From assembly GCA_015178975.1 (NCBI GenBank), contig WHVD01000017.1, positions 434,001-498,000 of the forward strand: a DNA stretch of 64,000 bases, written 5' to 3'. Each line of letters opens with the position of its first letter. The stretch's first letter is position 1. Shown here piece after piece: positions 16,543-52,654 of the stretch. A program made the translations under genes and the position numbers. The stretch is from Hysterangium stoloniferum (lineage: Eukaryota; Basidiomycota; Agaricomycetes; Hysterangiales; Hysterangiaceae). The notes under the pieces were generated by a model. The model was not told the origin of the DNA and did no database searches. It saw only the letters and a program-made list of their open reading frames with translations.

Positions 16543-16749
16543 CCCAAGAAGGGTCATGACGCCACTTGATCCAATCGAAGCGGCACATACATTAAGTAAA
16601 TATGGTATACTTGACAGGTGGGAATATGTTATCTCAGGTTTAATCAATGGCTTCGATATTGGGGTAAAGGACTGCATACTGCGCACTGTCATTTTTCGAA
16701 AATCACAAATCCTCTTCATTAGACACGGACTTTATATACAAGTGAATAG

Positions 16750-25169: not shown

Positions 25170-25175
25170 TGCCTC

Positions 25176-26684
25176 TCATGAAGAAGGTCGTTCAACATAA
25201 TCTTGATGACCAGACGTATTTGGTGTTTTTTCCCTCACCCCTTGTGACAGATGCTCCATGGGTGATCCAGATGACTTACTATGACCAATGTATGTCTTTT
25301 TGGTCGTCTCTCCTAATCCTTCAGTACGTCCTTTCCTCCTTGCTCCCAACCCTACGAGTGTTGCATATGACGGACGCATTTGATTAGCCAACCTTCCTGA
25401 CCGTCTTGGTGCTTCCTCCAATGCTACCGCTGCGGACCCCGTATACAGTGGTGTCGACACGCTGTTTAAGCCAGGTACCCCTGAACCGTAGTGCACCCCC
25501 CGTGTATCCTCTTCCATCCCTGGAATGTCAGTTACATACTCAGATTCAGCCCTAATGGTGCCCAAGGGCTCATCGCTATAGATTCTTGATAGAGCATCTG
25601 CAAACGTATTCGACTTTCCAGGGATATAGTGAATCTCGAAGTGGAATTCATTTAGAAGATCCAGCCACCATGTCTGCCTTGGAGACAGGTTCTTCTGCGT
25701 GAGTATATATTCTATCCCTTTATGGTCAGTACATATTCGGAATTTTACCCCCAACAGTTGTGATCGGAATCGTTTCAATGATTCCACAATAGCCAACAAC
25801 TCCTGTTCGTGGACAGGGTAGTTCTGTTGTGCCGAATTGAACTTTCCCAACCAGAATGACACTACTGCAGCAGTGCAGAGATCTTCACCTTGGCTGAGAA
25901 TGCCACTTGCACCTGTCAAACAAGCGTCTGTCACCAAATTAATGGTTTGATGACCTCATGAGTAGTCCAACGCAATTCTATAACTGTCACGATGGGCCTG
26001 AACAATACACTTGACGTCTTCAAAGGCACGCTGCTCTGTTGCACCCCAATGCCACTGCCTGTTTACTCCTGTCTGCGCTGCTAAAATAGCCATTGGAATT
26101 CAAACCCCCTCGCAGTTGTTAGCGAGATATCCCACTGCCCCCAAAAATCCTGCCAGCAGTTGCTTATTTGTCGGAATCTTCCAGTTGCCCACTGTATCGA
26201 CTTTATGTGGGTCCATTTTTATACCTTTATCGTTAATGACATGCCCTAAAACTGGTAACTCCGAAGCAAACAAGTGCATCTTATTGACAGCGAGGTATAA
26301 TTTTTCCCGACGGAGCACAGTAAACACGGTGCGTAGATGCTTGACATGATCACTGATAGTGTCAGAGTATACGACAATATCATCCAAGTATACATCCATG
26401 AAGACGCCAATGTACGGGGCAAAAATGTGGTTCATCAATGTCTGGTAGGTCGACGGACCATTGCAATCCCCTATTTGTAACATCAGGCTCTCCATAGTGC
26501 CATCAGGAGAGGTGAACAATGTCCGGTGGACATGCTCAGGAACCAATCGAATCTGCTCATAGGCATCCTTCCCATCTATCAAACTCCGATACTTATGACG
26601 CACAACATTCCGTAGAATAGCTTCGATATCTGGCAAGGGGGTCGCCAGCTTATATGTGTTAGCATTCTGCTCACGCTTATCCAC
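25176..26684 (-). pseudogene. gypsy reverse transcriptase and RNase H region
   Basis: On the minus strand: LPDIEAILRNVVRHKYRS near 26,620, SLIDGKDAYEQIRLVPEH near 26,560 and the catalytic YLDDIVVYSDT box near 26,380. RNase H follows with VTDACLTGASGILS near 25,930, HEQELLAIVESLKRF near 25,810, TDHKGIEYIL near 25,725 and KSNTFADALSR near 25,610. This is the element's polymerase core. Fossil, not continuous. Confidence 0.85.
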
Positions 26685-26696
26685 TACGGTGCATAT

Positions 26697-27722
26697 TCAC
26701 AAAGTACCGTCAGCCTTTGGAGGTTTAGGAATAATGAGCATAGGACATGTGTTCGTTCCCGTGGCTACTCTCCACCTCCCATTCTTGATATATGCATTTT
26801 TTTTTTCATGCCATAGATCCCTCATTGCTTCAGGGCATTTGGATGGTCTCCATGAGTAAGCTTTGGTGTCATCAATTATTGGAATGGTATGATTAACAGC
26901 CCTTAATGGAGGCAGTGCTGTTGAAGCAGTGTCTGGGTCAAGGTCAGCCACTTCAGCACGTAAGTCTGCCCTTAACCTTTCTAACTCATTGTCAAAAATT
27001 TCAGCTACTGCAGAACGGAGAGTCTCGATGGTATCTCCTTCCATGGCGAGTGGCAGCACTGACCCAATGTTGACCCTTGTAGGATTCAACCCCATCATAA
27101 CTTGATGTTGAAATATTAAAGGGGTCCCTAATATCAAGTCGTATGAATCAAGGTTAGCAACATTGAAATGCCGAGTACACTTTATATTCTGATATGAAAA
27201 CTCAGCAGTAGCAGAATAATTAATTTTTGACCGTGATCCGTGAACAGCCAACTGAATAGTAAGTGGTTTTACTAATGGATCCTTGACTACCTTCAGCTGA
27301 TCGACTAACGTCGTTGACATGAAGTCTGCCAGTGATCCGCTATCGATTAGGGCTTTCACTGGTTGTTCATTGATGAATGCCTCAATGACCACAGGTTTCG
27401 GTAAGCAACGAGTAAAGTCTTTTGGTTGCATTGAGGTACGCTGAATCATTTCAACCCCGTCATTTTGCAACTGACTCTTCTTCCTATGTGCTAACACCTT
27501 TTTCGTAGGCATATGAGCGGCGTTGACAAACACAACTGCCCTTGATAAGTCCTCTGTGACTTCTCCCCTGGCCACAATCTGTGGCACAGTCCATTCATCA
27601 TGTTGGAGATGGTCCTTCGTAACCAGGTACGTTACTGATAACTCCCGGTCACGAATCTGATACGATCCTGCTGTGAATCTGATGATAAATCGCTGTCGCT
27701 CCACCCCATTTATATCCGTCAA
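26697..27722 (-). CDS. gypsy protease and linker (fossil ORF)
   Basis: A 341-residue minus-strand frame. A retropepsin-like core is visible: VKALIDSGSLADFMS near 27,340 (the DSG catalytic turn) and YDLILGTPLIFQH near 27,140 (the ILG flap partner). The C-terminal part begins reverse transcriptase (AMRDLWHEKKNAYIKNGRW, then MLIIPKPPKADGTL near 26,740). The protease would cut Gag-Pol into its mature parts. Confidence 0.75.
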   Translation of the reverse strand: MTDINGVERQRFIIRFTAGSYQIRDRELSVTYLVTKDHLQHDEWTVPQIVARGEVTEDLSRAVVFVNAAHMPTKKVLAHRKKSQLQNDGVEMIQRTSMQPKDFTRCLPKPVVIEAFINEQPVKALIDSGSLADFMSTTLVDQLKVVKDPLVKPLTIQLAVHGSRSKINYSATAEFSYQNIKCTRHFNVANLDSYDLILGTPLIFQHQVMMGLNPTRVNIGSVLPLAMEGDTIETLRSAVAEIFDNELERLRADLRAEVADLDPDTASTALPPLRAVNHTIPIIDDTKAYSWRPSKCPEAMRDLWHEKKNAYIKNGRWRVATGTNTCPMLIIPKPPKADGTL

Positions 27723-28523
27723 GATGCCTGTCTTATAATAGACTCAAAAGCGAATCTCCAACAACTTACACATTGCCTCCTGGCAGTGTCGTCGAAAAGC
27801 TGGCATCTCTTCGGTGAACCCAGGTATGTGTTCCTCATACACGGCTTGTATTTTATCCTCTATGGCTTCGTCAACCCTGAACACAGACCAGGGCATAAAC
27901 AATGGCAAATCAGTATTGGACTCATCCCAAATCCGCAAGCCAGACTCTTCTGTATGTACCTGAAACCGAGTTTCGGGGGAAATCCCTTCCTGTAATGCCT
28001 CCTCTGGCGTGAAATACTCTTTCAAAGCTGCCAGGAGGTACTGCCCTGGAGTGGGCCTGTTTTCTCTCATTGGTTCGTCATCCTCTAAAGACTCCCCTTG
28101 ATCTGTCCCGCCCTCCATTAAAATAGCTGTACTAGCCATTTGAGCGATCGTCCAGTCGCCACTTAGGAGGGCCTGTTTTGATATCGCCATATACAAGTGG
28201 GGTCGAAGGCGATCTACTATTTCATATGTCCAGTGACAATGATCAAATATCACCTGAAACCGCTCGGTATGACACATCCCGGCATCAATGGACTCAACAT
28301 TTGAAAAATACAGACAACACTCATGTTGTATTAGAGTTGCGACAGAAATTCGGTCGGCACAGTTATTGGTAAGTCTTTTCCCAGACCATTCGGAGTTACT
28401 TAAGATACTTTGCTCTACGCGATACCCAGGTTCCCTACATACTACCTTTCCAATATGCAGCAGAGGCCCGGGTAAGACGTTATCTTTGATCACAAAATCT
28501 GCCGTTGTCAAGGACACTTCAAA

Positions 28524-30880
28524 TCATGTCCTTGGATTTTGCCCCTCAGCGATGGCAGTATCCTGCCCAAAATATTCAGTAATTGATTTTTGCAGCCAAG
28601 CTGCATAAATCCGCTCATGCAAAAGATTAAACTTCTGTTGGTCTTCCGGATTTCTCAACACAAAGGAGGCCATGTGGAGTGGTATCTCCGCACGCTCCTT
28701 TTTTTTTTCCAAATCTGTGAGTCGTTTAACTCTGACAGATTTAGCCGACATCACAGTACCCTTTTTGGGTGCCGAAAGGAATTTTCCTTGAGGACAATTG
28801 CGGGATTCATGACCCTCCCTCTTGCAATTGAAGCATCATCCTTCTGCTTGAAGTTGATTAATTTCTGAACGACTCAATTTCAAGCGAGGTACTTTATTGG
28901 TGTTTTCGAACCCAGAAGATGTCGATGGATGAGTTCTTTTTCCTTTTTCATCAGTTTGTCCCACTATCTGATTGGCTTGTTCATTCTTTTGTAGCCATCC
29001 TCGGTTCGACTTGACAAATGAGGTTTCCCTTCGTCCTTTGTCTATCTTATGAAACTCTTGAGCTGCTTCGAATCGAGTAGCCGTCTTGATGAGTCTCTTC
29101 CATGATGTATTGTCAGGGTTTAACCCCTTGTCTAACCATTTTTCCTTAAGGTAATCGTATGCACCATCCCATACAATCTGCTTAAGTTGACGCTCCTGCA
29201 TGTCAGGAAACCGAATTGCATTATGTTCAACATCTCGAGCGAAATCCCGAAAGCACCTTCCACCCTGATGGGAAGTGGTCAATCGCTTACGCAACTGCAA
29301 CTGTAATCTGCCGGAAAACAATAGTCGAAAAGACCATTGTACACAGCCTTCAACGTCCACTTCCTCTTGCTCAGTGCCACATGTTTCATATAGAATGAAC
29401 TAGCCTTGCCATCCAGGAAGTAAATGATGAGCTTAACCACCCATTTACGATCTAACCCATTAATTTCTGCCCACAGATCATAGGTGTAGATAAAGGCTTC
29501 AAGTACATCAATTTCAGCTACGCCGTTATATATAACAGCCTGCTTCGTTTTGACTCCAGCTAACAATTTTTTGGTCCATTTAGCATCGGCCTTCGACCTT
29601 TTTTGCTTTTCATGTCTTATGCGATTAGAGCTTGGTGAGGTTTTCTTTCCACACTTCTTTTTCCCTGTTTCAGAATTGCTTTCCGTAGAATCTTCTGATC
29701 CCGATCCTGAATCAGGTGCGTCTATGCTCCTACTGATTTCCGAATCAGTGGATATACTGCTGGCTGAATCATCTGATCCATCACTACTAGATGGGCTGCT
29801 GGAGTCAGATGGTGGTCCGAACTTTCCTTGCCCTCCCACTGCAAAGTACCTGCCATCAGGCACTTGTGAGGGTTCTCGTACATACTGGTTCGTCACATTC
29901 TTATGCATCTGCTTTCTCAGCAACTGACGATTTCGCTTCTTGCTCTCCCCACCAGTGTTTAGACTCGGGGAAGCTTTAGTAGGTTTCTGTAAGGGACGTT
30001 CACCCTCCATTCTCTCCTTTCCCTTAGGGGACTGGGTTGACGACTTGTTTTTAGATCCATCTGCTTTTGCAGGTTCTAACCTAGAGGAGGATGCTTCGGT
30101 TGGAATGGGTTCATTTTCGTCTACCTCAATGACAATGGCGCTTAGATTTAGGGAGACATGGGGAAATGTAACTGGACTCTCCAACCCTCTAATCATTCTC
30201 CTGGCTTTAGGTAACGTCCACGTTTCTGGTAGCGGCCCCAACTGATCTTCATCAGACTCCAAACAATCGGACCATCTAAACTGATCAGCCTGGCTGCGCT
30301 CCAGTGCCATAGCCTTGGACGCTCCCTCCTGCCTTTCATTGTCATTGCCACTACTCTCCATTTCAAACCACTCTGGAAAAAAGAGCGACTTTGTGTGGAT
30401 GAGAGGTGTCTCCTTTGGCAGCCTCCTCCGGAAGGTCTTTCGAGGGGCGGCCAGCTCTTCAGGATACAATAGGCTATACTGGTATGTCCAGTTCTGAAGA
30501 GTAACCGGAGTACGGAGGTATTCATCAATAAGGGGAAAAAGCTCTCTCTCTCCCCCGCTTTCAGACGATTCATTCGAGGCTTCACTACTGGGAGCATGGT
30601 CGTTTCCACCAGCCGGGGCCATCGAGGAATCAGAGGTTATTGTCGCTACCTCTTCCGTCTCGGCATCACGGTCCATCCTTCCCTCTCCCCCCTGATGCGT
30701 AGGGAGGATTGGTTCGGGGCCCGTGGCATTCTGAGGCGAAGAAGTACTACTCACCGTTGCTACGGCCCGATCGTTCAACTCATCAACTACCACTGCTTGT
30801 TGAACAATTCTCTTGCTCCACACGGGGATTGCGCTTCGGACTGTGCCTCGGCGAGTAACGGGTTGATTTATCTCGGACAT
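28524..30880 (-). pseudogene. gypsy gag region
   Basis: The frame 29279-30880 starts near the 5' LTR and is rich in Ser, Glu and Asp with a basic segment (KKKCGKKTSPSSNRIRHEKQ near 29,640). A capsid-like helical part follows (YDLWAEINGLDRKWVVKLI near 29,450, then LDKGLNPDNTSWKRLI near 29,110). A CCHC knuckle (CKREGHESRNCPQGKF) lies near 28,800. Gag would form the particle shell and bind RNA. The long acidic N-terminal part is unusual for gag, though I cannot say how rare. Confidence 0.7.
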
Positions 30881-31452: not shown

Positions 31453-33198
31453 ATGTCTTCGCAGTATGCAGGAGACAGTAGCTCCGCTGAATCACAGGTA
31501 CCAGTTGTCTCAGGTATTAAATCAGATTTTACACTGTTTCGAATCTGAAGCACGTAAACGGAAGCATCAGGAACGATCAACCGTGAACATTCGCTGCGGC
31601 CTACCACGGTTCCTTCAAGCCCAACCAAGGGGGCATCTAGTGGCGGTAATGGCCTAGATAGCGAGGAAGGCAACCCTTATGCCAAGCACATTCAATCGGA
31701 TTCGCCCATATGGTCGTCATATCTACAGGAAACGGAAAAAGAGGATAGAGAACTTGCCAATTCATTGCAAGTTGGTATCGACGAGCTTCTCATATTTGTA
31801 AACTGAATTTATTCTCCTTTATGGGATATTCAATTCATAGTTTCTCAGGCAGGCTTGTTTGGAGCGATTCTTACCGCTTTCCTGATCGAAAGTAGGAAGT
31901 ATTTGCAGGTAGATCCTCTTCAAGAAATCCTTCACACACTCCAAAATTAGTTCGCTGCGACTACCTCTCCGTCTTTTCAAGTCTCCAAATCTTCCCTTAT
32001 TGTCAACTATTTGTGGTTCAGTAGCCTCGGTCTGACCCTGGTCAGTGCGCTCTGTGCTGTACTTGCAAGGGAATGGCTGGCAAAGTATATTCCTGTATCG
32101 CCAGGAAGCCGCTCAAGTGATGCATGTGAACGTCTCCTTCGTGTTAAGAGAGCGCAGCAGTGGCGCCTCGAGTCAGTTGTTACTGGCATCCCGCTTTTGA
32201 TCCAACTAGCTCTCTTTCTTTTTTCTGCAGGTCTCGTCTTATTCACCTGGGAGAGCAGCGTAGCTTTAGGCGTGCTTACGCTTTTTTTGACCGGATGCGG
32301 AATCGCGCTATATATACTCGGGACGTTATTTCCCTTGTTTTCCCCCGCCTGTCCCTTTCAAACAACAATGTCACGCTTTTTCCCGGTCGTCTCTGCAGGA
32401 GCAAAGTATGGGACGTCCGGATCAGACAATCCTGGGTCTCTTTCATCGACATGGACATATCCATTTAGAATTTCTGAATGGCTAGAAAGCCTCTCTCGGT
32501 TCTTGGTTGAAGCACAACGAAAGCCTCAACGGACCGAACTTGAAGCTGATATCCTGGCATGGGTGATTGAAAAATCTATGTCGGAGGAGGCAGTTCAGGA
32601 GGCACTGAGGGCCGTAGCAGGTGCGAAACCATGTGAACAGTTGCGAATTGCTTTGCGCCAACGAGCCGTAACGGAAAAACTATGCAAAACATTTGAAAGT
32701 TGCTTTCACGTTACCGCGGGCGTCGTCACCGTACGTGATGCAGAACTTGCCGAAGTTTCTCTCCTGGCAATGTCACGGTTCCTTTCGCCGCGAACAGACA
32801 AACTGATAGACGAAGGGTACCTTAGCCCCTTCAGGATCCTGATACAGGTCGGGAGACCCTTACATCGGTTGGACAGTTTAGAGCCTTGCCTGAGGACATT
32901 GGGGTTGGCGGTACTTATTGGTATTAAGGTAAACATGGATGAGGGTAACCTAGGGGTGTCGACATACTCAGACATCCAAACTCTGATCACTCTGGGTGCA
33001 GCACCGTACGAGCGACAGACATTGATGATGGTTGCTATTGATGGAGCATTGTCAGAGAAAGAGGACCTACGTCCAAGGTGCCAAGAGGTAATATTGGCAT
33101 ATTGGCATCTTCGTAAGGACATTTGTCATGGCTACAGACAGAAACTAATTGATGAGCAGAGGATTGCCAGAGAATGCTGGAAGGGAAGGGTGTTATAG
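31453..33198 (+). CDS. DUF6535 membrane protein, three exons, one internal TAG
   Basis: Exons 31453-31513, 31565-31797 and 31849-33198; both introns are 51 bp, GT-AG, in phases 1 and 0, and the joined frame predicts 547 residues. The splice join gives LLIF-AGLFGAILTAFLIES, which matches my recollection of the DUF6535 core: a W-x2-Y-acidic N-terminal segment (SPIWSSYLQETEKEDREL), a membrane helix, then LWFSSLGLTLVSALCAVLAREW and a long second hydrophobic pair (LLIQLALFLFSAGLVLFTW, about 32,200-32,260). The C-terminal ~270 residues are soluble and helical. The function is unknown; it is probably an integral membrane protein. An in-frame TAG lies at 31948-31950. It could inactivate the gene, be a sequence error, or be removed by a 42 bp GTAGAT...ATTAG intron in phase 0. 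Confidence 0.7.
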
Positions 33199-33243
33199 CA
33201 GGTGAACTGTCCTGTTTACATCAATGAAAATACACATAGCTGA

Positions 33244-35253
33244 CGTATTGGCACGGCCGGAAAAGGAAACGAGTGGATAAAGAGACTAGCACAAAGTAGT
33301 ACCAACCGCTTTGAACATAGAACTGATCTCGAAGAACTATTACTCGTGAAATGTGGTAAGAGTATGCGAAGTGGAAAAGGAGTTTAATATAATATGCAGC
33401 GGTTTTCAGCGAATTATCCAACTGGTATTTGTGGGGCCATTACCCACATTATTGCACTTTTGAAGGACTCTGACAACACCGTTCGATCAAACGGAGTATC
33501 GGCCTTGGCGAAGCTTTCAGAACGAGGTTCAGTGGCTCATAATGGGATGGTAATCTTGCTGACATTTGATCACAGCCGAATTTCGAGCTGCGATTTCGGG
33601 TGCCATTGGCGACATCTTTGCACTTTTGATGGACACTGACGACTTGGTTCGTTCAGACGGAATGACGGCCCTGGCGAAACTTTCAGAACAAGGTGCGATG
33701 CCTCATAATAAGATGTGAACCCAGCTCACATTTAATCACAGCCGAATTTCGAGTTGCCATTTCGCGTACCATTCCCGACATTGTTGCACTTGCACTCTTC
33801 AAGGACGCTGACGACTGGGTTCGTTCAACTGCAGTATCGACCCTGGCCAAGTTTTCAGAGCAGGGTGCAGTGCCTCATAATGGGACCAGAACCCAGCTGA
33901 CATTTGACTACAGCCGACTTGCGGCCTGCCATTGCTGATCTCATTCCCAACATTGTTGCACTTTTGAAGGACAGTGACAACTGGATTCGTTCAAAGGGAG
34001 TGTCCGCCCTAGGGAAGTTTTTAGAACAGGGTGCAGTGACTCATAATGGGATAGGAACCCAGCCGACCTTTGACCACAGCCGAATTGCAACTTGCCATTG
34101 CTGATGTCGTTCCCAACATTGTTGCATTTTTGAAGGACGCTAACAACGGGGTTCGATCAAGTGGTGTATCAGCACTGGCCAAGCTTTCAAAGCAAGGTTG
34201 CATTGCATCCTCATGGAATGGGACCCCAGCTGACATTTGAACTCAGCCGAATTTCGACCTGTCATTGTGAATGCCATACCTGACATTGTCATACTGTTGA
34301 AAGACTCCGACGCATCCGTTCGATCAAAATGTGTATCAGCACTGGCCAAGCTTTCGGAACAAGGTGCGGTGCCTCATATTGGGATGAGAACCCAGCTGAC
34401 ATGCATTGACAGCCGACTTTCGAGCTGCCATTTCAAGCGCGATTTCCGAGATTGCTGCACTTTTGAAGGACTCTCGGTCCTTTGTTCGATCAAGGGCAGC
34501 ATCTACCATGGTGAAGCTTTCAGAGCAAGGTACGGTCCCACATAATGGAATGGAAATGCAAGTGACATTTGACCACAGTCGAATTTCGGACTGTCCTTTC
34601 GACCACGGCCGAATTTCGAGGTGACATTGTGGATGCTATTCCTGACATCGTTGCCCTTTTACAATCCTGCGGCAAATCCGCTGGGTCAGATGGAGTATCG
34701 GCCCTGGTCAAGCTTTCAGAGCAAGGTGGGATGCGGCACAGTGGGGTGAGAATCTAGCTTACATTTCACCACAGCTGAATTTCGAGCTACCATTTTGGAT
34801 GCCATTCCCGCAATTGTTGCACTTTTGAAGGACTCTTTCCCCGACGCTCGATCAAACGCAGTATCGGTCCTGGCCAAGCTTTCAGAGGAAGGTGCGGTGT
34901 CTCAATAATGGGATGTGAATCCAGCTGAAATCCGAACACAGCGCTATATGAAGTGGCTATAGTGTGTACCATTCCTGACATTGTTGCACTTTTGAAGTAC
35001 CGTTTTGCCCCCGTTCGCCGGAGCACAGCATTTCTGCTGGCCAAGTTATCTGAGAAAGGTATTCCAATAATTCTTCATGCAGCATTTTTCTCGAGTCTTC
35101 ACAGCGAAGTTCCTTCCTCTTGTCAGGGGTCACATACTTGGTGCTGTAGGTTTGTCTGACAGCATGCGGCCATCGCCGCACAATCCCCCTTCAACTCCAC
35201 TGCGACGCTTGACTATCCCCCCCTTCTACCCCACCCCATGCTCATACATATAA
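33244..35253 (+). CDS. HEAT-like repeat protein 1 (open across all exons; 5' end uncertain)
   Basis: Ten complete HEAT-like exons start at 33410, 33576, 33742, 33914, 34080, 34247, 34413, 34579, 34775 and 34942, each of 117 bp (one 123, one 147), with 46-50 bp GT-AG introns, all phase 1. A final exon (35105-35253) starts like a repeat and runs into the shared upstream region of the next gene. Each unit encodes about 39 residues of the form AEFRAAISGAIPDIVALLKD, a variable window, then VSALAKLSEQ. All exons are open. An upstream exon ending at 33355 (frame WIKRLAQSSTNRFEHRTDLE) joins through a 54 bp intron; no ATG is clear there. It may be the 3' part of the DUF6535 gene, through an 84 bp intron 33190-33273. 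HEAT repeats usually form curved binding surfaces; the partner is unknown. Confidence 0.65.
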
Positions 35254-35392
35254 CAGCGATCTAGTCAATAAGCCCGACACACACCAGATCTCCCAATTCG
35301 CGACGAGTCGTCTCCGGTCGACTATAGATCTCTTACAGAGTACTCACAGCATTTGGCGTCATGAAGGTATCAAGATCCTTCAACAGATAACG
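35160..35392 (+). promoter_or_regulatory. Promoter and 5' UTR of HEAT-like gene 2
   Basis: This ~215 bp block is almost the same as 40,850-41,068 in front of gene 3. It contains a TATA-like CATACATATAACAG at 35,242-35,255, about 140 bp before the ATG, and a pyrimidine-rich stretch just upstream. Conservation between two paralogues supports a real promoter/leader. Confidence 0.55.
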
Positions 35393-37900
35393 ATGGCATG
35401 TACGTGAAGAGCCCTCATATGTTATTTCGTATATTGTTCATTTCCAATGTCTAAACTACTTGAAAGCTCACAGTTTTGGCCTCACCTTACCAACCTTCAA
35501 TCTCAGAGTGCGTGAAGGAAAATTGGCTCTCGGACAGGCGGTGATTACTCTCCATGTGTTTAGTGAGTGTGCCGACTTCTTGCAAACTGCCATAATTGAT
35601 GGGTTTCCAGACAAATTTCACACCGCCATTGCCGGTGCCATTCCTAACATTTTCATACTTTTGAAAGACTCTGATGACTCCGTTCGGTCCCAGGGAGTAT
35701 CGGTCCTAGCCAAGCTTTCAGAACAAGGTAGGGTGTCTGTCAATGGGATAGGAATCTAGCTGACAAATGATCACAGCCGAATTCCGAGCCGCCATTTCGG
35801 GGGCCGTTCCCGACATTGTTGCACTTTTGAAGGACCCCTACCTCTCCCTTGGATCAAACGCAGCATCAGTCCTAGGCAAGCTTTTAGAGCAAGGTGCGGT
35901 GCATCAAAACGGGTTGGAAATCCAGTTGACATTTAACCACAGCCGAATTTTGCGGTGCCGTTTTGGGTGCCATTCCCGCCATTGCTGCACTTTTGAAGGA
36001 CTCTAGGTCATCTACTCGATCAAATACAGTATCGGCCTTGGCAAAACTTTCAGAACAATGTGAAGTGCCTCATAATGGGATGGGAACATCATTGACATTT
36101 GCTCACAGCCGAATTTCGGGCTGCTATTTCGAATGCCATTCTCGACATTGTTGCACTTTTGAAGGACACTGACGACATTGTTCTTTTAAACGCAGCATCG
36201 GCCCTGGCCAAGCTTTCAGAGCAGAGTGCGTTGCATCATAATGCAATGGGAATCCGACTGACATTTGACCCTAGCCGAATTTCGAGCTGCCGTGTCGCGT
36301 GCCATTCCTGACATCGTTGCACTTTTGAAGAACACTGAGGTCTTTGTTAGTTCAAATGCAGCATCGGCCCTGGCCAAGCTTTCAGAGCAAGGTGCTTTGC
36401 ATCAGAATGGGATGGGAACCCAGCTGACATTTGACCACAGCCGAATTTCGACCTGCCATTGTGGATGCTATCCCCGACATTGTCATACTTTTGCGAGACA
36501 CTCAGTGCGGTCAATCAAATATTGGATCAGCACTGGCCAAGCTTTCGGAATATGGTGCGGTGCCTCGGATATGGGATGAGAACACAGCTGACATTTATCA
36601 CAGCTGAATTTCGGGCCGCCATTTCGGGTGTCATTCCCGACATTGTTGCACAAGTGAAGGACACTGAGCCCCTTGTTCGATCAAACGGAGCACTGGCCCT
36701 GGCCAAGCTTTCAGAGCAAGGTGGAGTGCCTCACATTGGGACGGTAATCTTGCTGACATTCGATCACAGCCGCATTTCGGCCTGCCATTTCGACTGCCAT
36801 CCCTGACATTGTTGCACTTTTAAAGGACACTGACGTCTTTGTTCGTTCAAGCGCAGTATCGGCCCTGGCCAAGTTTTCCGAGCAAGGTGCGTTGCCTCAT
36901 AATGGATGGCAATCTCGGTGACATTTGATCACAGCCAAATTTCGGCCTGCCATTTTGAGCGCCATCCCCGACATTATTGTACTTTTGAAGGACGCTCAGC
37001 CCGTTGTTCGATCACACGGAGTATTGGCCCTGGCCAAGCAGAGCAAGGTGTGGTGCATTATCATGGGATGGGACTTCGAGTGACACTGTTCCCAGCCGAA
37101 TTTCAACCTTCTGTGTCGCGTGCTATTCCCGATATTGTTGCACTTATGAAGGAGCCTTTGTACTATGTTCAACCAAGTGTTTCATCGGTCCTGGTGAAGC
37201 TTTCAGACCAGGGTTCAGTGCCACATAATCGGATCGGAATCCAGCTCACATTTGACCATAGCGGAATTTACATCTGCCATTGCACGGGCTATTCCTAGTA
37301 TTGTTAAACTCTTGGAGGATAAACACCCATTAAAAGCAACACATGTCGTAGACTTGCTCGTCAAGCTCTCAGCACACGGTGCGTGCCTTGAGACCCAAGT
37401 CAACAGCTTCTTCTTAGCTATGTTTTCAAAGATTGCTTTCGTGATTCAATTGCTCGTTGTAACCTAGAACATCACTGTGCATTCCTCGTTGCTGCCAAGC
37501 AATATGAATTCGTTTTATCCGGTGTAAGACTATTTGCAGCTTTTTCTCAATATGGTATGCTTTAATTGTATCCAGCATTGACTCTTTTTATTACCGTCTT
37601 TTAGGCTACTTTTCCAACCTCAAGCTGCAGATCGTCCTCATTGCACTGTGCCAATTCTATCTACCTGAACCACCTCTCCTGCACCGTGGCACGCTGATTG
37701 AAATCCTCTTGGAGGATGGTGAGTGCTTCCATCTTCTAGTCGTATGAATGCCAATTTTTTCAGCTTTTGTAAGCCATACCATTCTTGAAGTCGCTCATAT
37801 TGTGTCCTTCATGATACATTTCATGGGTGATATTCCTTCTGATTGTATTCGGGCCTTGATACTGGAAATGGATAGACACGGACTATTAACAACATTGTAG
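35393..37900 (+). CDS. HEAT-like repeat protein 2 with distinct C-terminal domain (one frameshift)
   Basis: Sixteen exons. Exon 1 is only 7 bp (ATGGCAT, 35393-35399); exon 2 (35467-35562) adds FGLTLPTFNLRVREGKLALG. Eleven HEAT-like exons follow from 35611, 35777, 35943, 36109, 36275, 36441, 36604, 36770, 36935, 37096 and 37262, mostly 117 bp with 48-49 bp introns. Exons 14-16 (37432-37554, 37605-37718, 37764-37900) encode ~124 residues with no recognised domain (RDSIARCNLEHHCAFLVAAK, YFSNLKLQIVLIALCQFYL, ending RHGLLTTL). The start was chosen because the 7 bp exon, the AAAG acceptor and the frame are the same in gene 3. Exon 11 (36935-37047) is 113 bp: it lacks CTTT after GGCCAAG, which shifts the frame into a stop in the next exon. 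Because repeat exons are symmetric, a transcript skipping it would stay in frame. Confidence 0.7.
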
Positions 37901-40849
37901 CCTCGCACACTACTATTGTCCAAGAGTGGCTGAACTGTGAAAGTTCCACCCACATTTACACATGGCTCACGCCAAATCCTTATGCACTCGGTACCTTGTG
38001 CCATTCGTATTTACCCCACACATCCTTTTCACTCGATTGTACACCTTATTGAATATTATTGGCTCGGCTTGATTTATTAAACAGTCACTGGAAATTTTGG
38101 TGGATGTGTACTGATTGCAAACCATCGATTGCTACAAGGTATAGCGCCAAGTCCGTTCATATCAATGGGAGGGAGCTCTTCTAGATCTCCATTTGCGGCA
38201 GCAATGAGCTTCCTTTTAGAGCCTAGTTAAAGTTAGAAAATATTTTTACCAGTTGCAATAATTGGATCGAGGTAAAACTTTGAATGATCGGGATCGAATG
38301 GGAATGGACTACATGATTAAACCTGTCCTACCTCATGACGAACGTTCGTGATTTGACATGGCAAATGATGCCCCGTGAACGAACACACCAACATTCCCGT
38401 CCTTACTACCTCCACAAGATTTATTTTCCTAAATCTCCAGGGATGGCAACTGTAATGCAAGCTGACTGACGATTTGCAATTTATTGTTCTCTGGGACAGC
38501 CCAACTCTATGCTAATTTCTACCATTGAGCGATGATCCGCTTTGTATTAGAAGGACAGGTTTACCTATTGATATCCGACTTTTTAAGACTGGAATGGTGC
38601 TGTAATATGAGTAAATGGCTCTTTGGAGGGTTCAAAACCTAGCTGTGTAGCTATTCATACACACGTGCGTGCGCGTGTGTGGTAGGCGCAATTCTAGTGC
38701 GTAGTGGGGCGCTGTGGTTTCCCCCCGCGGGAATAAGCACGGCGACGAAGTTTTTGAATCTAAATGACGGTGTGACTTTCCTGGTCCAGGAAGATCAGCA
38801 GCCATTCTCCCCGACAGTCTAACCAATTCAGCCCTTGGATTGCAACAACTCCCTAGGTCAACAGCGCAGTACTGTCAAAGCCCAGGATGTCTCCTCGACC
38901 CCCACTTGATCCGTTCTTGCTAACCTTATAGATCATCATGTACGTCTCCTCACAAAAATGCTTGGTCGCAACGCATGAGACTCTATAATGATGGGAGTCG
39001 GAAGGAGGTACGAACATAATCGAGACTACTCTGAAGTTTATGGCTGGATTTGCAGACTGTGCGTACCACAGCTGTCAATACCCTCCGTAGTCTCGTTTGT
39101 GGCCTTCCGCATTGTGAAGCAATCTCCCACTTAACATATGCCACATCCACGCTTCAGTCCTATCAAGAATTCCTTCATCGTGCTCACTCCTTCCATGCCT
39201 AATCGCTACTCCATTCACTGGTCCGTATGGGTCACACAATTGCATATCAGTTTTGAAGGCATACCGTTGGCCCGGTGAAGGCGTGGATTTACATGATTCT
39301 GTCACATTTTATAACAGTGATGAACGATATCTCAACAAAAAGAATACAATTACATTTATGGATACAGATTGTTCGCGATAACATGATTCCATCCTTTAAA
39401 ACAAATGGCAAGTACAAGACCTATGTCGGAAAATATTCAAATTCCCGAAAACTATTCGGAAATTTAAAGAAGTCTTCTGTACGAGACATCTGATGTTAGG
39501 AGAGATGGGGGTCCCTCAATAGTCTACATCAGTTATTCTCGCATAATAATTGAGAGGACTGTGAAAAAAAAATTAGATAGCTTAATTTGGAAAGTATCCA
39601 AATAGGATATATAAAATTCCACGCAGTTCCAAAAAAATAAAAATAAAAATAAACACATTTCGGGAAATCTTTGTAATTTCCACAAACTGTCTAATTTTCA
39701 CGAATTTTAAGGGGTAATTTAAAATCGTGAATATGAAACTCAACAGTGTGACATGTAATGACCTCCATTTCTATGCGCATGGCAGCGACACCAAGATTCT
39801 CAGAGAAGCATTGTGATGGAGCATCCAATCTCCGTCTGTGACTAGTATCTACGAGAACGGAGGTGATTTTACTGTAATATCTCGTGGAAAATACAAAAGA
39901 CTGGGTGTCCTGCACCATACATAGCTCAGTATCCACTGCATTCATATTTTCCATGGTGATGTCACTTTTTGAATAAATAGCTCAGTATCCACTGCATTCA
40001 TATTTTCCATGGTGATGTCACTTTTTGAATAATAGAAAGGGCAGATTACCCCGAACTCTACCCGAGAACACTTGGGCTACCAAACTTATGTGGTGTTAAC
40101 GTAAAACAATTGTCAGCATTCATGTGTGCTTTTGGCGGCAGATGATATCAAGAAGTGGAAGAAATCGTTGGGGCAACTTGCGAGTATCCTGAACCGTAGG
40201 TTTCATTTCTCGTCGTTGCTAATATTGATAGAGTTGAACACGCATTCAAAAGAAGTTTACAACTTGAACATGAAACGCACAATTTGGACAAGTAACCAGT
40301 TTGAATATGAACTGGACAATATTGCCGGATATAGCAACGAGATTGAAGCCGCCCAGAAAGAGTGATTTTCGCACAAGCGAAGTCCCAATGCTAATCTATC
40401 GCATTCTACCATAAATAAGCAATAGTGATACTCACCTGATATGAGCACATCTACGATACACCACTGCCTACATCTAACAAACCGAGTGCGTGCAGCTACG
40501 ACACGAACGAGGTACCTGCTGAGGTTTCTGTCGAAGCTGTCTCGAGGAACTAACTGCATCGGATTCGCCAGCTGTTACTGAGCTCAGAACAACAAAGTCA
40601 GAGCATTGTGGGAATAAGGGAGATATTTCGCGAAGAACTCTGGAACGGTGGGATTGGAAGGATATAATAGCCATGATTTATGGGATCGAGCTCCTGATGA
40701 CAATCACCACATACCACTGTCAGCTACTCATCTAGAAGTTTAGACAGACGAGTTGGTGTATAGTTTAGAATGTAAATGCAACGGATCCAGAATGACACTT
40801 GGACATTGTCAGTGCTAAGGAGAAAGGACCTGCGACGAATCACTGGCCA
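37901..40849 (+). repeat. Diverged pieces of the large non-coding repeat
   Basis: No gene is supported. Pieces match the duplicated block in scrambled order: 37,988-38,060 resembles 63,863-63,930; 39,270-39,460 resembles about 11,495-11,625 and 63,940-64,000; 40,120-40,845 resembles 12,390-13,300. The run at 38,656-38,682 (ACACACGTGCGTGCGCGTGTGT) alternates purine and pyrimidine. I see nothing definite in 38,100-39,260. Confidence 0.6.
39921..40032 (+). repeat. 56 bp tandem duplication
   Basis: Two adjacent identical or nearly identical 56 bp units start ATAGCTCAGTATCCACTGCA and end TTTTTGAATA(A). It is a recent local duplication in non-coding sequence. Confidence 0.85.
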
Positions 40850-41068
40850 TCGGTGCACAATCCAACTTCAACTCCACTCCCAAGCTTGACTATCCCTCCT
40901 TCTACCCCACCCCATACCCATGCATATAACAGTGATCTAGTCAATAAGCCTGATACACACCACATCTCCCAATTTGCGACGAGTCGTCTCCGGTCGACTA
41001 TAGATCTCTTACAGAGTACTCACAGTATTTGGCGTCACGAAGGCATCAGGATCCTTCGACAGGTAACG
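40850..41068 (+). promoter_or_regulatory. Promoter and 5' UTR of HEAT-like gene 3
   Basis: It closely matches the region in front of gene 2, with the TATA-like CATGCATATAACAG at about 40,919-40,932 and the same leader CGACGAGTCGTCTCCGGTCG near 40,978. Confidence 0.5.
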
Positions 41069-42990
41069 ATGGCATGTACGTGAAGATATCTCATATATTA
41101 TTTCATATGTTATTCATTGCTCAATTTCCAAACTACTTCAAAGCGCACAATTTTGGCCTCACCTTACCAACCTTCAATCTCAGAGTGCGTAAAGGAAAAT
41201 TGGCTTTCGGACAGGCGGTGATTACTCTCCATGTGTTTGGTAAGTGCAACGACTCCTTGTAAACTACCATAATTGATGGTATTCAGAGAAATTTCGACCC
41301 GCCATTGCCCGTGCCATTCCTGACATTGTCATGTTTTTGAAGGACTCTGATAACTCCGTTCGGTCCAACGCAGTATCGGTACTGGCCAAGCTTTCAGAAC
41401 GAGGTGGGGTTTCTCTCAATGGGATAAGAATCCAGCTGACAATCGATCATGGCTGAATTCCGAGCTGCCATTTCAGGTGCGATTCCCGACATTGTTCTAA
41501 TCTTGAAAGACTTGAACGGTCTCGCTGGATCAGAAGGAGTATCAGCTCTGGGAAAACCTTTAGAGCAGGGTACGGCGCATCATAATGGGTTGGGAATTCA
41601 GTTGACATTTAACCACAGCCGAATTTTTCCCCGCCATTGCGAGTGCCATTCCCGACATTGTTGCACTCTTAAAGGACTGGCACCAGCCGGATGGATCCAA
41701 CGGAGTATCGGCCCTAGCGAAGCTTTCAGAACACGGTGCAGTCCCTCTAAATGGGATAGGAAGCTTGCTGACGTTTGACATAGCCGAATTTCGAGCTGCC
41801 ATTTTGGGTGCCATTCCCGACATAGGTGCACTTTTGAAGGACTCTAGGTCATCTATCCGATCAAATGGAGTATCAGCCCTGGAAAAACTTTCAGGACAAG
41901 GTGAGGTGCCTCATAATGGGATGGCAACATCGTTGACATTTACCCACAGCCGAATTTCGGGCTGCTATTTCGAATGCCATTTCCGACATTGTTGCACTTT
42001 TGAAGGACACTGATTACTTTGTTCGTTCAAAGGCAGCATCGGCCCTAGCCAAGCTTTCAGAACAAGGTGCGGTGGATCATAATGGGATGGTAATCTAGCT
42101 GACATTGATCACAGTTGAATTTCGGCCTACCATTTCGAGTACCATTTCCGATATTGTTGCCCTTTTATAACACTCTGACCTCTTCCTTTGTTCAACTGCA
42201 TTATCGGTCTTGGCTAAGCTTTCAGAGCAATTTGAGTTCCATCATAATGGGATGGGAATCCGACTGACATTTGACCCCAGCCGAATTTCGAGCTCCCGTG
42301 TCGTGTGCCATTCCTGCCATTGTTGCAATTTTGAAGGACACGGTCAGCTTTGTTCATTCAGACGCCGCATCGGCCCTTGCCAACCTTTCAGAGCAAGGTG
42401 CGTTACATCAGAATCGGATGGGAACCCAGCTGCCATTTGACCCCAGCCGAATTTCGACCCGCCATTATGAATATCATCCCCGACATTATCATACTTTTAC
42501 GCGACTCCTATTCATCCGATCCATTAAGTGTTGGATTAGCCCTGGCCAAGTTTTCCGAGCAAGGTGCGGTGCCTAATCATGGGATAGCAATGTAGCTGAC
42601 ATTTGATCACAGCTGAATTTCGCCCTGCCATCTTAAGTGTCATTCCCGACATTGTTGCACTTTTGAAGGACACTGGGGACTTTGTTCGTTCAAACGCACT
42701 GTCGGCCCTGGCCAAGTTTTCCGAGAAAGGTGCGGTGTCTCATAATGGGATAGCAATGTAGCTGACATTTGATGACAGTCGAATTTCGGCCTGCCATTTT
42801 GAGTGCCATCCCCGACATTCTTGTACTTTTGAAGGACAATGACTACTTTGTTCGTCCAAACACAGCATCGGCCCTGGTGAAGCTTTCCGAGCATGGTGCG
42901 GTGCCTCATAATGGGTACCTGACATTTGATCACAGCCGAATTTCGGCCTGCCGTTTTGAGTGCCATCCCCGATATTGTTGCACTTTTGAA
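41069..42990 (+). pseudogene. HEAT-like repeat gene 3 (decayed)
   Basis: Exon 1 ATGGCAT (41069-41075), exon 2 (41144-41239, FGLTLPTFNLRVRKGKLAFG) and exon 3 (41287-41403) match gene 2 in size, phase and sequence. Eight more full repeat exons begin at 41453, 41619, 41784, 41950, 42115, 42281, 42447 and 42613, then 42779, and a last one (42936) is cut off near 42,988. The acceptor before 41453 has changed from CACAG to CATGG. Exon 8 (42115-42231) contains an in-frame TAA at 42168-42170 and has lost its GT donor. The gene has no C-terminal domain exons. It is a pseudogene, but the repeat frames after the TAA remain largely readable. Confidence 0.75.
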
Positions 42991-43549
42991 GGAGCATCAG
43001 GAAAATGTTTTCTGTCCTTATATACCTTAAATGCACTTGAAAAATGTTTAAGTAGAATTAAGGAAAATTTTGGTAAGGTTGACTTGGCTTGCAGCAAGGA
43101 CTTTGGATCTTAAAACTACCTTGAAATGCCCTGGAATGCCACTTACCCCAAGGAAATAGACGTGGATATAAGGAGTGTTCCTACTGCTAAGTGGATCTGT
43201 GCCACCATAAGGAAATAGCTTCCTGTCAAGGGGAGTGTAAGGAAAATACCTTATGGCTAAAGGGTGAATACAAAAGGTGAATAACAATGCTTGTATATTA
43301 ACAATGTTTAATAATTTATTTTTCATTCACTTAACACTACAACCATGCCTAATATAAATACGACTTTAGAGGTGGCTGCCAGTGATACTCAACCTAAATA
43401 ACCATTGTACTACTAGGTAACTGCACCAATGCCAATAGTGATGCCACCAGTGGTAATGGTGCCAGGTCTTTTTGGATTAACAGAAAGTTTCATAATGTAG
43501 TGCATGCATTTTTCAAAGACCTACCATGTGTCAAATATTGTGAAATTGG
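42991..43549. other. Unassigned sequence between HEAT-like gene 3 and the inverted relic
   Basis: About 560 bp that replaces the rest of gene 3. I see no gene, repeat partner or terminal structure; short GTAAGGAAAAT-like strings recur (43,066-43,090 and 43,237-43,250). Confidence 0.3.
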
Positions 43550-44150
43550 CTGTCATCAACTGTCAGCTGGATTCCAATACCATTAAGAGACATCCCACCT
43601 TGTTCTGAAAGCTTGACCAGTGCCAATACTCCATTGTGCTGAATGGAGTCGTCAGTGTCCTTCAAAAGTATGACAATGTTGGGAATGGCAATGGCGGTTC
43701 GAAATTTGCCCTGAAACCCAAGTCAGCACACTTACGAAACACATGGAGAGTAATGACCACCTGTACAACTCAGAGAGCCAATTTTCCTTCACACACTCTA
43801 AGGGTTGAAGCTGGGCAAGGATTTGTCCCAGTGATGCAAAAGTATAGTGATCTCAGGAATAGTATCCACAATTGCAGTTCAAAATTCAGCCATGGTCGAA
43901 AGGGCAGGTCGAAACTCAACTGTGGTCAGATGTCACTTGGATCCCATCCCATTATGTGGCACTGTACCTTGTTCCGAAAGTTTGACCAGTGGTAATTCAC
44001 CATTTGATTGAACAGTTGCATTGGACTCTCTCAAAAGCATGACAATGTTGGGCACAATGGCAGGTCAAAATTCGGCTGTGATCAAATGTCAGCCAGATTT
44101 CCAAACCATTATGATGTACCGCACCAGGTCAAAACAATCAAGTTTGGACC
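43550..44150 (-). pseudogene. Inverted, scrambled relic of a HEAT-like repeat gene
   Basis: The reverse complement carries recognisable family parts: a remnant of exon 2 (VREGKLA-like near 43,785 and TLHVF-like near 43,745), the small intron, a repeat exon (AIPNIVILLKD-like near 43,670, then LALVKLSEQG near 43,615), and further repeat exons at about 43,830-44,110. Relative to genes 2 and 3 the repeat exons lie on the wrong side of exon 2, so the copy was rearranged as well as inverted. CpG sites are nearly absent. It is not functional. Confidence 0.65.
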
Positions 44151-45074: not shown

Positions 45075-46100
45075 TGTCGGGATGTCACAAAGGTCACGAG
45101 TGTGACTACCCGAGTCACACAAGTCACGAATGTGACTACCCGAGTCACACAAGTCACGAACGTGACTACCCGAGTCATTATTAGGTTCCGCCGACTCATC
45201 GTTTGCTTCCGTCCCCGGGACCGCGGCCTTGAACCTTCATGTTCAAGCCAAAGCTTAGAACCCTTGTCTCAGAGAGGGGAATCACATGTTAAACAAAGGG
45301 TAAATAATGAGTACAATATGAGGTCATTATGATCTCACTAATGACCTCATAAACTAAATAGTTAGCTAATCATTGAGTTATCAAAATGTATATAAGGAGG
45401 GCTAAGTTTCCAATAAAATCATCTTATCACACACATATTTTACAGTACAGCACAGAAGCTTACCTCATCATCCTAAGGACAATAATAGCCTTAGTCTGAT
45501 ACACTCACTGCAAGCACCTACACTTGCAGCATCTTGAATCTTTGTCAGCAACTCTTGGACTTAGCTAATCATCTAAGTTCCCCAGCCTCACAGCTACCCT
45601 TTAGGCTTATTAATTAAATAATAAACCTAATAAGTATCTAAGTATCCTTACTGAAATCCCTGCCAATACTAGATTATTCAAGGCCCAGCCCTAAGTTTAT
45701 TGAATTAATCAAGTACAAGCACTCAGATAATCCAATACATATTATTTTCTCTATTAATAAATTATTTAACACCTTGTTAAATAACTATTAATAGTTACAA
45801 ATAAGCATACAAAAATCCGAAGCTCTTATATCAAGTCTCTGCCACGTTACTGCGCATATATTCAGCTTCCAGCCCCTATTCTCAAGGAATAGTTCTTGTA
45901 TTTGCTAAAAGAGTCATACACAGTTCTATTGAACCTTTCAATAATCAAAATAAGCATTGATTTGAGTTGTTTAAGCTTCATAGCGCAGCTCATTAATCTA
46001 TCAGTATTTAAATTACTGGACCTTTGCTTGTTTTATTGTTGAAGCTCTGTGACACTATAGCATATATTGAGCTATCTAAGAGAATCCCCTGAATACATTA
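45075..46100 (+). repeat. Possible LTR-like sequence
   Basis: The segment begins TGTCGGGATGTCACA and contains a strong TATA box (ATGTATATAAGGAGGGC at about 45,388-45,404), followed after ~30 bp by CACACACATATTTTACAGTACAG, which looks like an LTR U3/R border. No partner LTR, target repeat or coding part was found, so the call and the right limit are uncertain. Confidence 0.3.
45091..45180 (+). repeat. Three tandem 30 bp repeats
   Basis: Units at 45091-45120, 45121-45150 and 45151-45180 share AGTCACGAATGTGACTACCC and then CGAGTCAC. Each holds an inverted pair GTCAC/GTGAC. They lie about 215 bp upstream of the TATA box at ~45,390. Confidence 0.85.
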
Positions 46101-48717: not shown

Positions 48718-49019
48718 TGTCAGGGGACAATCTCAAGTTTTCTAAATTCATCCCTGACCTTCCTTAATATAGTCTCATAAGTCAAGGATAAGAGTACCTT
48801 GTTTTTATCACATTTTCAAACTCAGCTGCACCTTTAGTTAGTCACTCGCTAGCCGAGGGTTCCTTAGACTTTTCTCTTCGGATTCCCTCTGCTAGGTAAG
48901 TAATAATGTACATTGTATGTATATAATAGATAGGTATAAAACTTACTTCGGATTCCCTCTGCTAGTGCCCCAACTCAGTCATAGTGCGAGTCAGTGTGGT
49001 CTAGAGAGTCGCCCTTACA
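48718..49019 (+). repeat. gypsy 5' LTR
   Basis: 302 bp, TGTCAGGGGACAAT to CGCCCTTACA. It contains CTTCGGATTCCCTCTGCTAG twice, about 60 bp apart. Confidence 0.95.
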
Positions 49020-49158
49020 GAAGAAAAGTCTCACATCGAGTGACCGGAGTCACCGCCGCTATTTTTCGAGCCATATTCAAGATCGCAAATTCAAACCTTT
49101 ATACAGATCTAATCTACTTCGAGTTTACACGCGGTCCCCTCCCCTCATTTTTACTATT

Positions 49159-49926
49159 ATGTCGACTTCTATTACCGATCCCCACCAGGTGCTGGAACAG
49201 CACAGTAACGACATTAGAGATCTCCAAGCCTCCCAGAAGCAAAATACGGACCTGTTGCAGCAAATTCTTCAGCAACTCACTGTACAAACACAACCACCAA
49301 CGAATCCTCCACAGCCGCCCGCGTTACCTATGTCGACCTCTGCTGCCGTTTCGACCAACTCAGGCCCGAAGGTTCCACTTCCGAACGCGTACGACGGTGA
49401 TCGATCTGGTGGACGCACCTTCTACAACTCGTGTCTGCTGTACATCAGCATGAATGGGTCGAAGTTCCAGACGGACGAGACGAAGGTTCAATGGGTGGTG
49501 TCGTTCATGAAGACGGGTCGAGCCGCCCTTTTCGCAAATCGGCTCATGAAATCGTGGAGTCAAGGAGACACGGTGCCGTCGTGGGAGACCTTCGTGCGGA
49601 CCTTCGAGCGCGAGTTCTTTCCAGCTGACGAAGCAGCTACGGCCAGTATCAAGTTAGAAGGAACGACGTACCATCAAGCCCGAAGAACGGTCGACGAGTA
49701 CACAGATGAGTTTCGCGAACTCATTGACCTTGCAGGTTACAAAGACGCGTTAGCCATTGTGATGAAATATCGACACGGCCTTTTACCACATATCCAGACC
49801 CAGGTTGCGACGATGGAGAACCGCCCGAAGGACGACGATGAGCAAGGCTGGTACGACGCCACTTCCCGCTTCGACCGAAATCGAAATGCAAACGAGATTT
49901 TTCGTTCAGCAGGCGTCACAACGTGA
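49159..49926 (+). CDS. gypsy Gag (fossil ORF)
   Basis: The frame starts MSTSITDPHQVLEQ near 49,159, with a coiled-coil-like start (LEQHSNDIRDLQASQKQNTD), a Pro/Gln linker and a capsid-like core (VQWVVSFMKTGRAALFANRL, WETFVRTFEREFFPADEAAT, ARRTVDEYTDEFRELIDLAG). This is the retrotransposon Gag fold common to Ty3/gypsy. It would build the particle shell. The region is CpG-rich, unlike the pol region that follows. Confidence 0.85.
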   Translation: MSTSITDPHQVLEQHSNDIRDLQASQKQNTDLLQQILQQLTVQTQPPTNPPQPPALPMSTSAAVSTNSGPKVPLPNAYDGDRSGGRTFYNSCLLYISMNGSKFQTDETKVQWVVSFMKTGRAALFANRLMKSWSQGDTVPSWETFVRTFEREFFPADEAATASIKLEGTTYHQARRTVDEYTDEFRELIDLAGYKDALAIVMKYRHGLLPHIQTQVATMENRPKDDDEQGWYDATSRFDRNRNANEIFRSAGVTT

Positions 49927-50022
49927 CCGGTCGCACTGAAACCTTCGACGTTCCCTCGTGTTGTTCCCCCACTTCCCCCACATTCCACGTCGACACTATC
50001 CTCCTCTAGGCCGACCGACGCG

Positions 50023-50295
50023 ATGGACGTTGATGCGACAAAAGGCCGGGGTCTTCCCTCAACACTCTGTTTCGATTGTCATCAGCCGGATCTCAGTCGT
50101 GACTGCCCTCGAAAACTACAAAGAATCCGCTCCCTACTTACTAGCCTTGATGAAGAGGGACAGGACATGGCCATGGACATCCTTCTTGCAGAAGCGGATG
50201 TCCGAATTGCCTGTAGTAGGGTGGCTGAAGCAGATGACTCTCCTCGAGGGGCTGACCTACAGCCTGCTTCGGGTTTTCCCAACTGCAGCGAGTGA
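50023..50295 (+). pseudogene. gypsy Gag C-terminal zinc-knuckle region
   Basis: It carries MDVDATKGRGLP and the CCHC-type knuckle LCFDCHQPDLSRDCPRK near 50,068, followed by acidic sequence. The knuckle would bind element RNA. It lies between the gag and protease regions. Confidence 0.75.
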
Positions 50296-50467
50296 AGGGT
50301 ATGCCCTCGCTGCCACTTTCAAATAGATTCAGTGTCCTCTCTGTTGATGATGTATGTACAGTTAATACATCAGAAGTTGAACCTCTGTTGAGTGAGGACA
50401 CTGGAATTCAAGTCATACCTAACCCACCCAAGTCTCCCTCAGTCCATTCACATCGTAGAAGACCAGT

Positions 50468-52651: not shown

Positions 52652-52654
52652 GCC

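Follow-up and report, generated by a model that had tools for sequence, protein, structure and literature searches.

A DUF6535-headed gene family with paired exon-per-repeat HEAT arrays and a narrow diversified segment in Hysterangium stoloniferum

What kind of gene is assembled from tens of near-uniform exon-intron units whose sequence varies mostly at one spot? The question is raised by a 64,000-nucleotide stretch of the Hysterangium stoloniferum genome (positions 434,001-498,000 of contig WHVD01000017.1, labelled C79 here), which we call the window. An initial annotation had described in it three tandem genes of HEAT-like repeats with a hypervariable loop and had proposed a recognition surface. 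The DUF6535 membrane domain that heads the gene, the genome-wide family to which it belongs and the probable pseudogene state of the window copy had all escaped that annotation. In the reading that we favor, with a probability of roughly 55%, the family encodes membrane-tethered intracellular recognition receptors bearing a diversified ladder on a HEAT solenoid.

The window contains 32 plus-strand units in three arrays (10 + 11 + 11), in agreement with the more than 30 first reported. Tandem repeat detection gave a period of 166 bp, and a further repeat search returned only this 166-bp ladder. Each unit is made up of a 117-bp exon in phase 1 and an intron mostly 49 bp long. We took 26 loci carrying the repeat unit from the genome (an assembly of 111 Mb in 554 contigs) and added them to the window, which gave 645 units, aligned pairwise, each against the whole unit. 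GT and AG were both present in 523 of the 541 inner units of this set; among the same inner units, 35 of 45 exon length changes were multiples of three, whereas 142 of 153 intron length changes were not. Because of these splice-site ends, and of exon lengths kept in frame where intron lengths are not, the exon/intron division given by the initial annotation is well supported by the sequence. The most frequent donor was GTGCGG (307/645 units), the motif AGCTGA lay about 13 bases ahead of the intron end in 362/645, and acceptors were of the CACAG type. A stop test on intron retention (124/474) was uninformative. Units with an open 117-bp exon frame and an intron bounded by GT and AG, which we call clean, numbered 531 of 645; the other 114 were flagged, many of them at array ends.

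The features of the window that concern this family are as follows.

31453..37720, plus strand: one gene, probably a pseudogene in the window copy, with DUF6535, middle domain, array 1, linker, array 2 and C-terminal exons (ends approximate)
31711..32253, plus strand: DUF6535 (PF20153) domain with four main hydrophobic peaks and one short intron inside (C79:465711-466253, 142.3 bits)
31948..31950, plus strand: in-frame TAG within DUF6535 of the window copy, at a codon open in five other aligned copies
31951..33198, plus strand: open frame with the remainder of DUF6535 and a conserved middle domain (from frame and Pfam)
33410..35058, plus strand: HEAT array 1, 10 exon-intron units, 8 clean
35061..35610, plus strand: linker between the arrays, coding segments with probably short introns (aligned in 22 loci), taken for an intergenic gap in the initial annotation
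35611..37378, plus strand: HEAT array 2, 11 exon-intron units, 8 clean
37431..37556, plus strand: conserved C-terminal exon with 60 matches in the genome (C79:471431-471556)
40850..41286, plus strand: second linker copy directly ahead of array 3 (start approximate)
41287..43009, plus strand: array 3, 11 units, 7 clean, with an in-frame stop in the unit at 42115
43550..44127, minus strand: remnant of four damaged units, none clean (0/4)

By their sequence context, arrays 1 and 2 belong to a single gene headed by DUF6535. The upstream DUF6535, the open linker and the downstream C-terminal exon give the gene order DUF6535, middle domain, array 1, linker, array 2 and C-terminal exons. Its start is the ATG common to six aligned copies, and its end was placed by eye. 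The DUF6535 profile scored 90.1 bits for positions 31951-33195 and 113.6 bits for locus L019 (curated Pfam cut-off 23.9). Apart from DUF6535, no Pfam match was found in the frame that holds the middle domain, and an AlphaFold2 (AF2) model of positions 31951-33195 had a predicted local distance difference test (pLDDT) value of 43, too low for use. In the linker, three segments were tested, its poorly conserved middle lying outside the test, and each had exactly one stop-free frame in 22/22 loci (with one or two rows gapped). The ratio of replacement to silent change per site (pN/pS) in the open frame was 0.61, 0.51 and 0.72, below both other frames. Three separate genes, as initially annotated, are ruled out by this open coding linker together with the upstream DUF6535.

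The same layout recurs through the genome. We counted at least 425 matches to the unit and at least 75 to DUF6535. The two arrays lay 525-553 bp apart in 21 of the 26 loci and in the window, and comprised mostly 10-21 units, a few of them 8-9, some arrays running off the end of the fetched stretch. Spacing was checked for 65 of the 75 listed DUF6535 matches: the C-terminal exon followed 43 of them on the same strand, at 3.9-9.6 kb, and was absent after 22. Such a spread would be expected if repeat number differs between genes. The C-terminal exons matched DUF3384 weakly (E 0.03, below the cut-off of that family), and a search of NCBIfam profiles gave nothing relevant. On the window contig, many members in both orientations form a cluster over about 0.47 Mb (roughly 146-618 kb).

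The arrays belong by profile to the HEAT repeat family (PF02985/PF13646), as had been proposed. With PF02985 (curated cut-off 23.5 bits), the chain of array 1 (8/10 units) scored 77.7 bits (1.8e-22) and that of array 2 (8/11 units) 73.0 bits (5.9e-21). A sequence search of the structure database returned PP2A subunit A as the top match, with many alphaRep proteins among the best, and the match to both suggests a HEAT solenoid fold.

Diversity along the unit was concentrated at codons 21-23. In the 21 clean complete units of the window, its mean was 0.578 at these codons, as against 0.247 for the remaining exon codons and 0.264 for the intron; none of 20000 permutations of codon order reached the codon 21-23 maximum. 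In the 507 clean complete units of the whole set, the corresponding means were 0.555, 0.224 and 0.227, and 478 of 20000 permutations reached the maximum. By these values introns are less diverse than the loop, as the initial annotation had stated, and differ little in diversity from the remaining exon codons. The hypervariable loop is a real feature, but narrower than the six or so residues first assigned to it. We grouped the genes by eye into three subfamilies: G1 (L019, L020, L022, L023, L024, L026 and L032; 171 units), G2 (L029, L030 on both strands, L034 and L035; 87 units) and G3 (L027, L036, L037, L038, L042, L043, L044 and the window; 151 units). Eight other loci were excluded from the subfamily counts. 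Ranked by amino-acid entropy, the leading codons were 23, 22, 21 and 27 in G1, 22, 27, 23 and 8 in G2, and 22, 23, 21 and 8 in G3; codons 21-23 and 27 all ranked seventh or higher in G1 and G2 and eighth or higher in G3.

Is this variation driven by selection? The data bearing on this are sequences of paralogues from a single genome. Paralogous G3 genes keep their units in corresponding positions (matched identity 0.83-0.89 vs 0.69-0.71 for all unit pairs, in the seven genes other than the window), and the units of the window gene align by position like those of the others. We therefore compared position-matched units, 57 pairs from four disjoint gene pairs. At codons 21-23, pN was 0.273 and pS 0.119, a ratio of replacement to silent rates (dN/dS) of 2.63, against 0.100, 0.124 and 0.79 in the rest of the exon, the intron rate being 0.130 (Fisher p 2.4e-7, for units that are not fully independent). 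By bootstrap, pN at the variable codons was 2.11 times the intron rate (1.74-2.57), and their silent change was 0.94 times that of the rest of the exon (0.50-1.51); matching on the other sites only, with clean units (54 pairs), gave 2.11 and 0.90. The pairs L043-L027 and L036-L037 (32 unit pairs), chosen for an open main DUF6535 exon, the one exon checked, gave 2.58 (1.78-3.58) and a dN/dS of 1.95. The choice of codons was not drawn solely from the tested data, because the same three rank first in G1. In the 67 gene pairs that had five or more matched units (genes being shared between pairs), pN at the variable codons exceeded the intron rate in 66. The G3 pattern speaks for diversifying selection rather than hypermutation. 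Although pairwise dN/dS is open to distortion by gene conversion between paralogues, there is no evident reason why conversion should increase replacement at just three codons. The DUF6535 exon gave a dN/dS of 0.42 (0.33-0.57) over 36 pairs of nine genes, a set that includes the damaged window copy and from which three frames under 380 amino acids were dropped; the membrane domain is, by this measure, under constraint.

The alphaRep match also suggests where the variable residues would lie. The variable alphaRep positions are given as 18, 19, 22, 23, 26 and 30, and one alphaRep complex is described in which contact is made through concave faces bearing the variable residues (PMC3754942). With the register deduced from the structure-database match, these positions correspond to 22, 23, 26, 27, 30 and 34 in our repeat, a correspondence that would place the two most variable residues at sites designed for binding in alphaRep and would put the variable residues on the surface of the solenoid. 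Phenylalanine, tyrosine and tryptophan together make up 28.9% of residues at positions 22-23 vs 4.0% elsewhere. The DUF6535 part of L019 shows four main peaks of hydrophobicity, with a mean hydropathy of 2.0-2.6, followed by a weaker fifth at 1.2-1.4. Between peaks two and three lies a loop with eight Arg/Lys and three acidic residues; by the positive-inside rule, this loop suggests a cytosolic location for both ends and for the array.

Put together, the receptor reading is as follows. The genes form a large family whose products, apparently anchored in the membrane, carry four predicted helices (DUF6535), then a middle domain, a pair of HEAT arrays with a linker between them and a conserved piece at the C terminus. 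Recombination within introns or conserved exon ends may add, lose or swap whole repeats, and since each repeat is one exon, such changes would leave the frame undamaged. The two or three residues that immediately precede the second helix of each repeat, together with one on it, would line up as a ladder on the solenoid surface, selection would diversify these residues, and the ladder may bind a changing partner, for instance a non-self or parasite molecule. The recognition role proposed for the arrays in the initial annotation is an inference.

A number of observations weigh against this reading. Three of the six alphaRep-equivalent positions are the most variable here, the other three varying little; the group test on these positions is marginal (Mann-Whitney p 0.049), and the dN/dS of the set is 1.16 in G3 and 0.89 in the pairs with open DUF6535 exons, as compared with 1.88 in G2 and 2.16 in G1. 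Codon 8, which we would place in the first helix, is also variable. At the variable codons, pS exceeded pN in 8 of the 67 gene pairs. In G2 (27 pairs), their ratio to the intron was 3.42 with a silent ratio of 1.94 (0.93-3.48) and a dN/dS of 1.51; in G1 (37 pairs), these values were 4.20, 3.54 (2.04-5.28) and 1.19, and for L019-L020 (26 pairs) 8.5, 5.3 and 1.20. The near-identical pair L027-L028 shows little change at the variable codons. In addition, the dN/dS of 0.79 for the other exon codons points to weak constraint, and damage affects several family copies. Diversifying selection, as initially proposed for the loop, is therefore clear in G3, where replacement is in excess at the very codons at which diversity clusters and silent change is not raised, suggested in G2 and confounded in G1, where it is not isolated because silent change is raised as well.

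The raised silent change in G1, 3.5-fold relative to the other exon codons, is what would be expected if local hypermutation or targeted diversification acted on these nine bases, selection being secondary. The closest units within genes point the same way: they still differ at the variable codons, with silent and replacement change alike, and over the 84 closest pairs each kind of change exceeded the intron rate about 20-fold. Part of this increase, however, arises because whole codons are swapped, and such multi-base swaps inflate silent counts; codons differing by one base showed mostly replacement, with silent:replacement counts of 15:72 in G1, 7:64 in G2 and 21:109 in G3. Silent change at background level in G3 also speaks against hypermutation, so that the version of it suggested by within-gene pairs is unsupported in G3 after position matching and could still apply in G1. 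On balance we consider it very improbable as the general explanation.

The nine bases in G1 comprise 53 types over 171 units. While 29 types occur once, eight are found in three or more of the seven genes and together account for 89 units. Between genes, the flanks of units sharing a type are as distant as those of units with different types (0.111 vs 0.114), that is, type and flank are unlinked. The history of the nine bases is separate from that of their flanks, a result that short exchanges between units would produce; this fits block exchange rather than hypermutation, although recurrent mutation could produce it too. To this extent the gene conversion invoked in the initial annotation is supported, and in the most homogenized subfamily.

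Damage to some copies raises another alternative, namely that the repeats are decaying under relaxed constraint while exchange homogenizes the remainder, so that the variation has no function. The window copy itself carries the nonsense codon in DUF6535 and, in array 2, an exon 4 bp short in the unit at 36935, a frameshift; assembly errors apart, it is probably a pseudogene. Copies open at both sites exist elsewhere in the family and, since the window copy is probably dead, our conclusions on selection apply to the family. Array 3 is, as its sequence indicates, a truncated, damaged duplicate, with no DUF6535 match upstream of or near it in the genome-wide PF20153 profile search. L028 is another: it lies 38.5 kb from L027 on contig C512, is 98.6% identical to it over 5.0 kb, and has nine units in array 1 vs 12 in L027, the start of array 1 being missing; no DUF6535 match among those listed stands beside it. 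These truncated duplicates, the 114 flagged units and the dN/dS of 0.79 outside the variable codons would all be consistent with decay. Relaxation alone, however, should not lift replacement change above the intron rate, most units (531/645) are clean, with exon but not intron length kept in frame, and the membrane-domain exon is constrained. We regard decay as improbable.

The family could instead encode a membrane scaffold with variable binding and no part in non-self reception, such as an adaptor for trafficking or uptake with repeats that, after duplication, became specialized for different self partners. The conservation of unit positions between G3 paralogues would mean that each repeat keeps its identity, as in a specialized adaptor, and PP2A subunit A, the top structural match, is a scaffold. 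Against this, the variable codons change between paralogues at about twice the intron rate, and repeat number differs between G1 genes (10-21 per array, one array running off the fetched stretch), unlike in a fixed scaffold. Such a scaffold therefore seems to us rather unlikely, and we retain the receptor reading. A broader version of it is put forward tentatively: DUF6535-HEAT proteins would be an unrecognized class of fungal non-self receptors devoid of the core of NOD-like receptors (NLRs), in which recombination among membrane-tethered, exon-per-repeat solenoids builds new surfaces, with tens of genes in this genome.

The window also contains several element-like regions, named by eye from their translations. 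Retroelement-like frames at 22869-30880 (minus strand; integrase, reverse transcriptase and a gag-like frame with a zinc knuckle) end about 570 bp ahead of the start codon of the DUF6535 gene. A second retroelement-like set lies at 48994-54292 (plus strand; gag-like, reverse transcriptase, integrase and a chromodomain-like end), and long frames at 15616-19375 (plus strand) resemble an element that encodes reverse transcriptase and ends in a tyrosine-recombinase-like part. A 56-bp tandem sequence (39917-40032, about two copies, 98% matching) and a 30-bp tandem repeat (45084-45177, about three copies) were detected as well.

How does the family compare with known systems? DUF6535 is a basidiomycete family, and by the curated cut-off our genes are members. 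A full-text search of the literature for DUF6535 gave a single paper, with a table entry for one down-regulated gene, and in other searches, among the part of the matches covered no title or abstract opening described a family of this kind. For DUF6535, a family without known function, the constrained membrane domain, the diversified HEAT ladder, the differences in repeat number and the cluster on C79 now provide a concrete proposal. With the artificial HEAT-like alphaRep binders and the thermophile HEAT-like repeats behind them, recovered by sequence match in the structure database, the family shares two hypervariable residues before V-R and one after, which the deduced register equates with alphaRep positions 18, 19 and 23. 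It differs from them in being a natural protein with a membrane domain and in its repeat length of 39 residues, the alphaRep repeat having 31. Moreover, alphaRep positions 22, 26 and 30 are much less variable here, and positions 8 and 21 more so.

A further close system is that of the fungal NLRs, or signal transduction ATPases with numerous domains (STAND), with WD40, ANK, TPR or HEAT repeats of high internal conservation, such as Podospora HNWD (het-d/het-e). No Pfam match to NACHT or NB-ARC was found in the array chains, DUF6535 exons, middle domain or C-terminal exons, the linker being unscanned and two of the three array queries covering the best 25 of 31 and of 36 families; because of this result in the scanned parts, we do not class the family as NLR. 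Unlike fungal NLRs, it has the DUF6535 membrane domain, a separate exon for each repeat and two arrays per gene. Three studies describe internally conserved, diversifying repeats in fungal NLRs (PMC4986451, PMC12222747, PMC10197012), and in the first of them the Podospora set also covers HEAT-coding genes (PMC4986451). Both systems have highly similar tandem repeats in variable number, a large gene family, exchange between repeats and diversifying selection on few codons. The combination of internally conserved repeats with positively selected codons is shared unevenly, selection being clear in G3 and confounded in G1, where conservation is highest. If the receptor reading is true, fungi would have a second, non-NLR route to keep a variable recognition repertoire, in which the repeat-per-exon layout is a simple means of reshuffling binding units while the frame stays intact, and the DUF6535-HEAT family may work like a fungal NLR.

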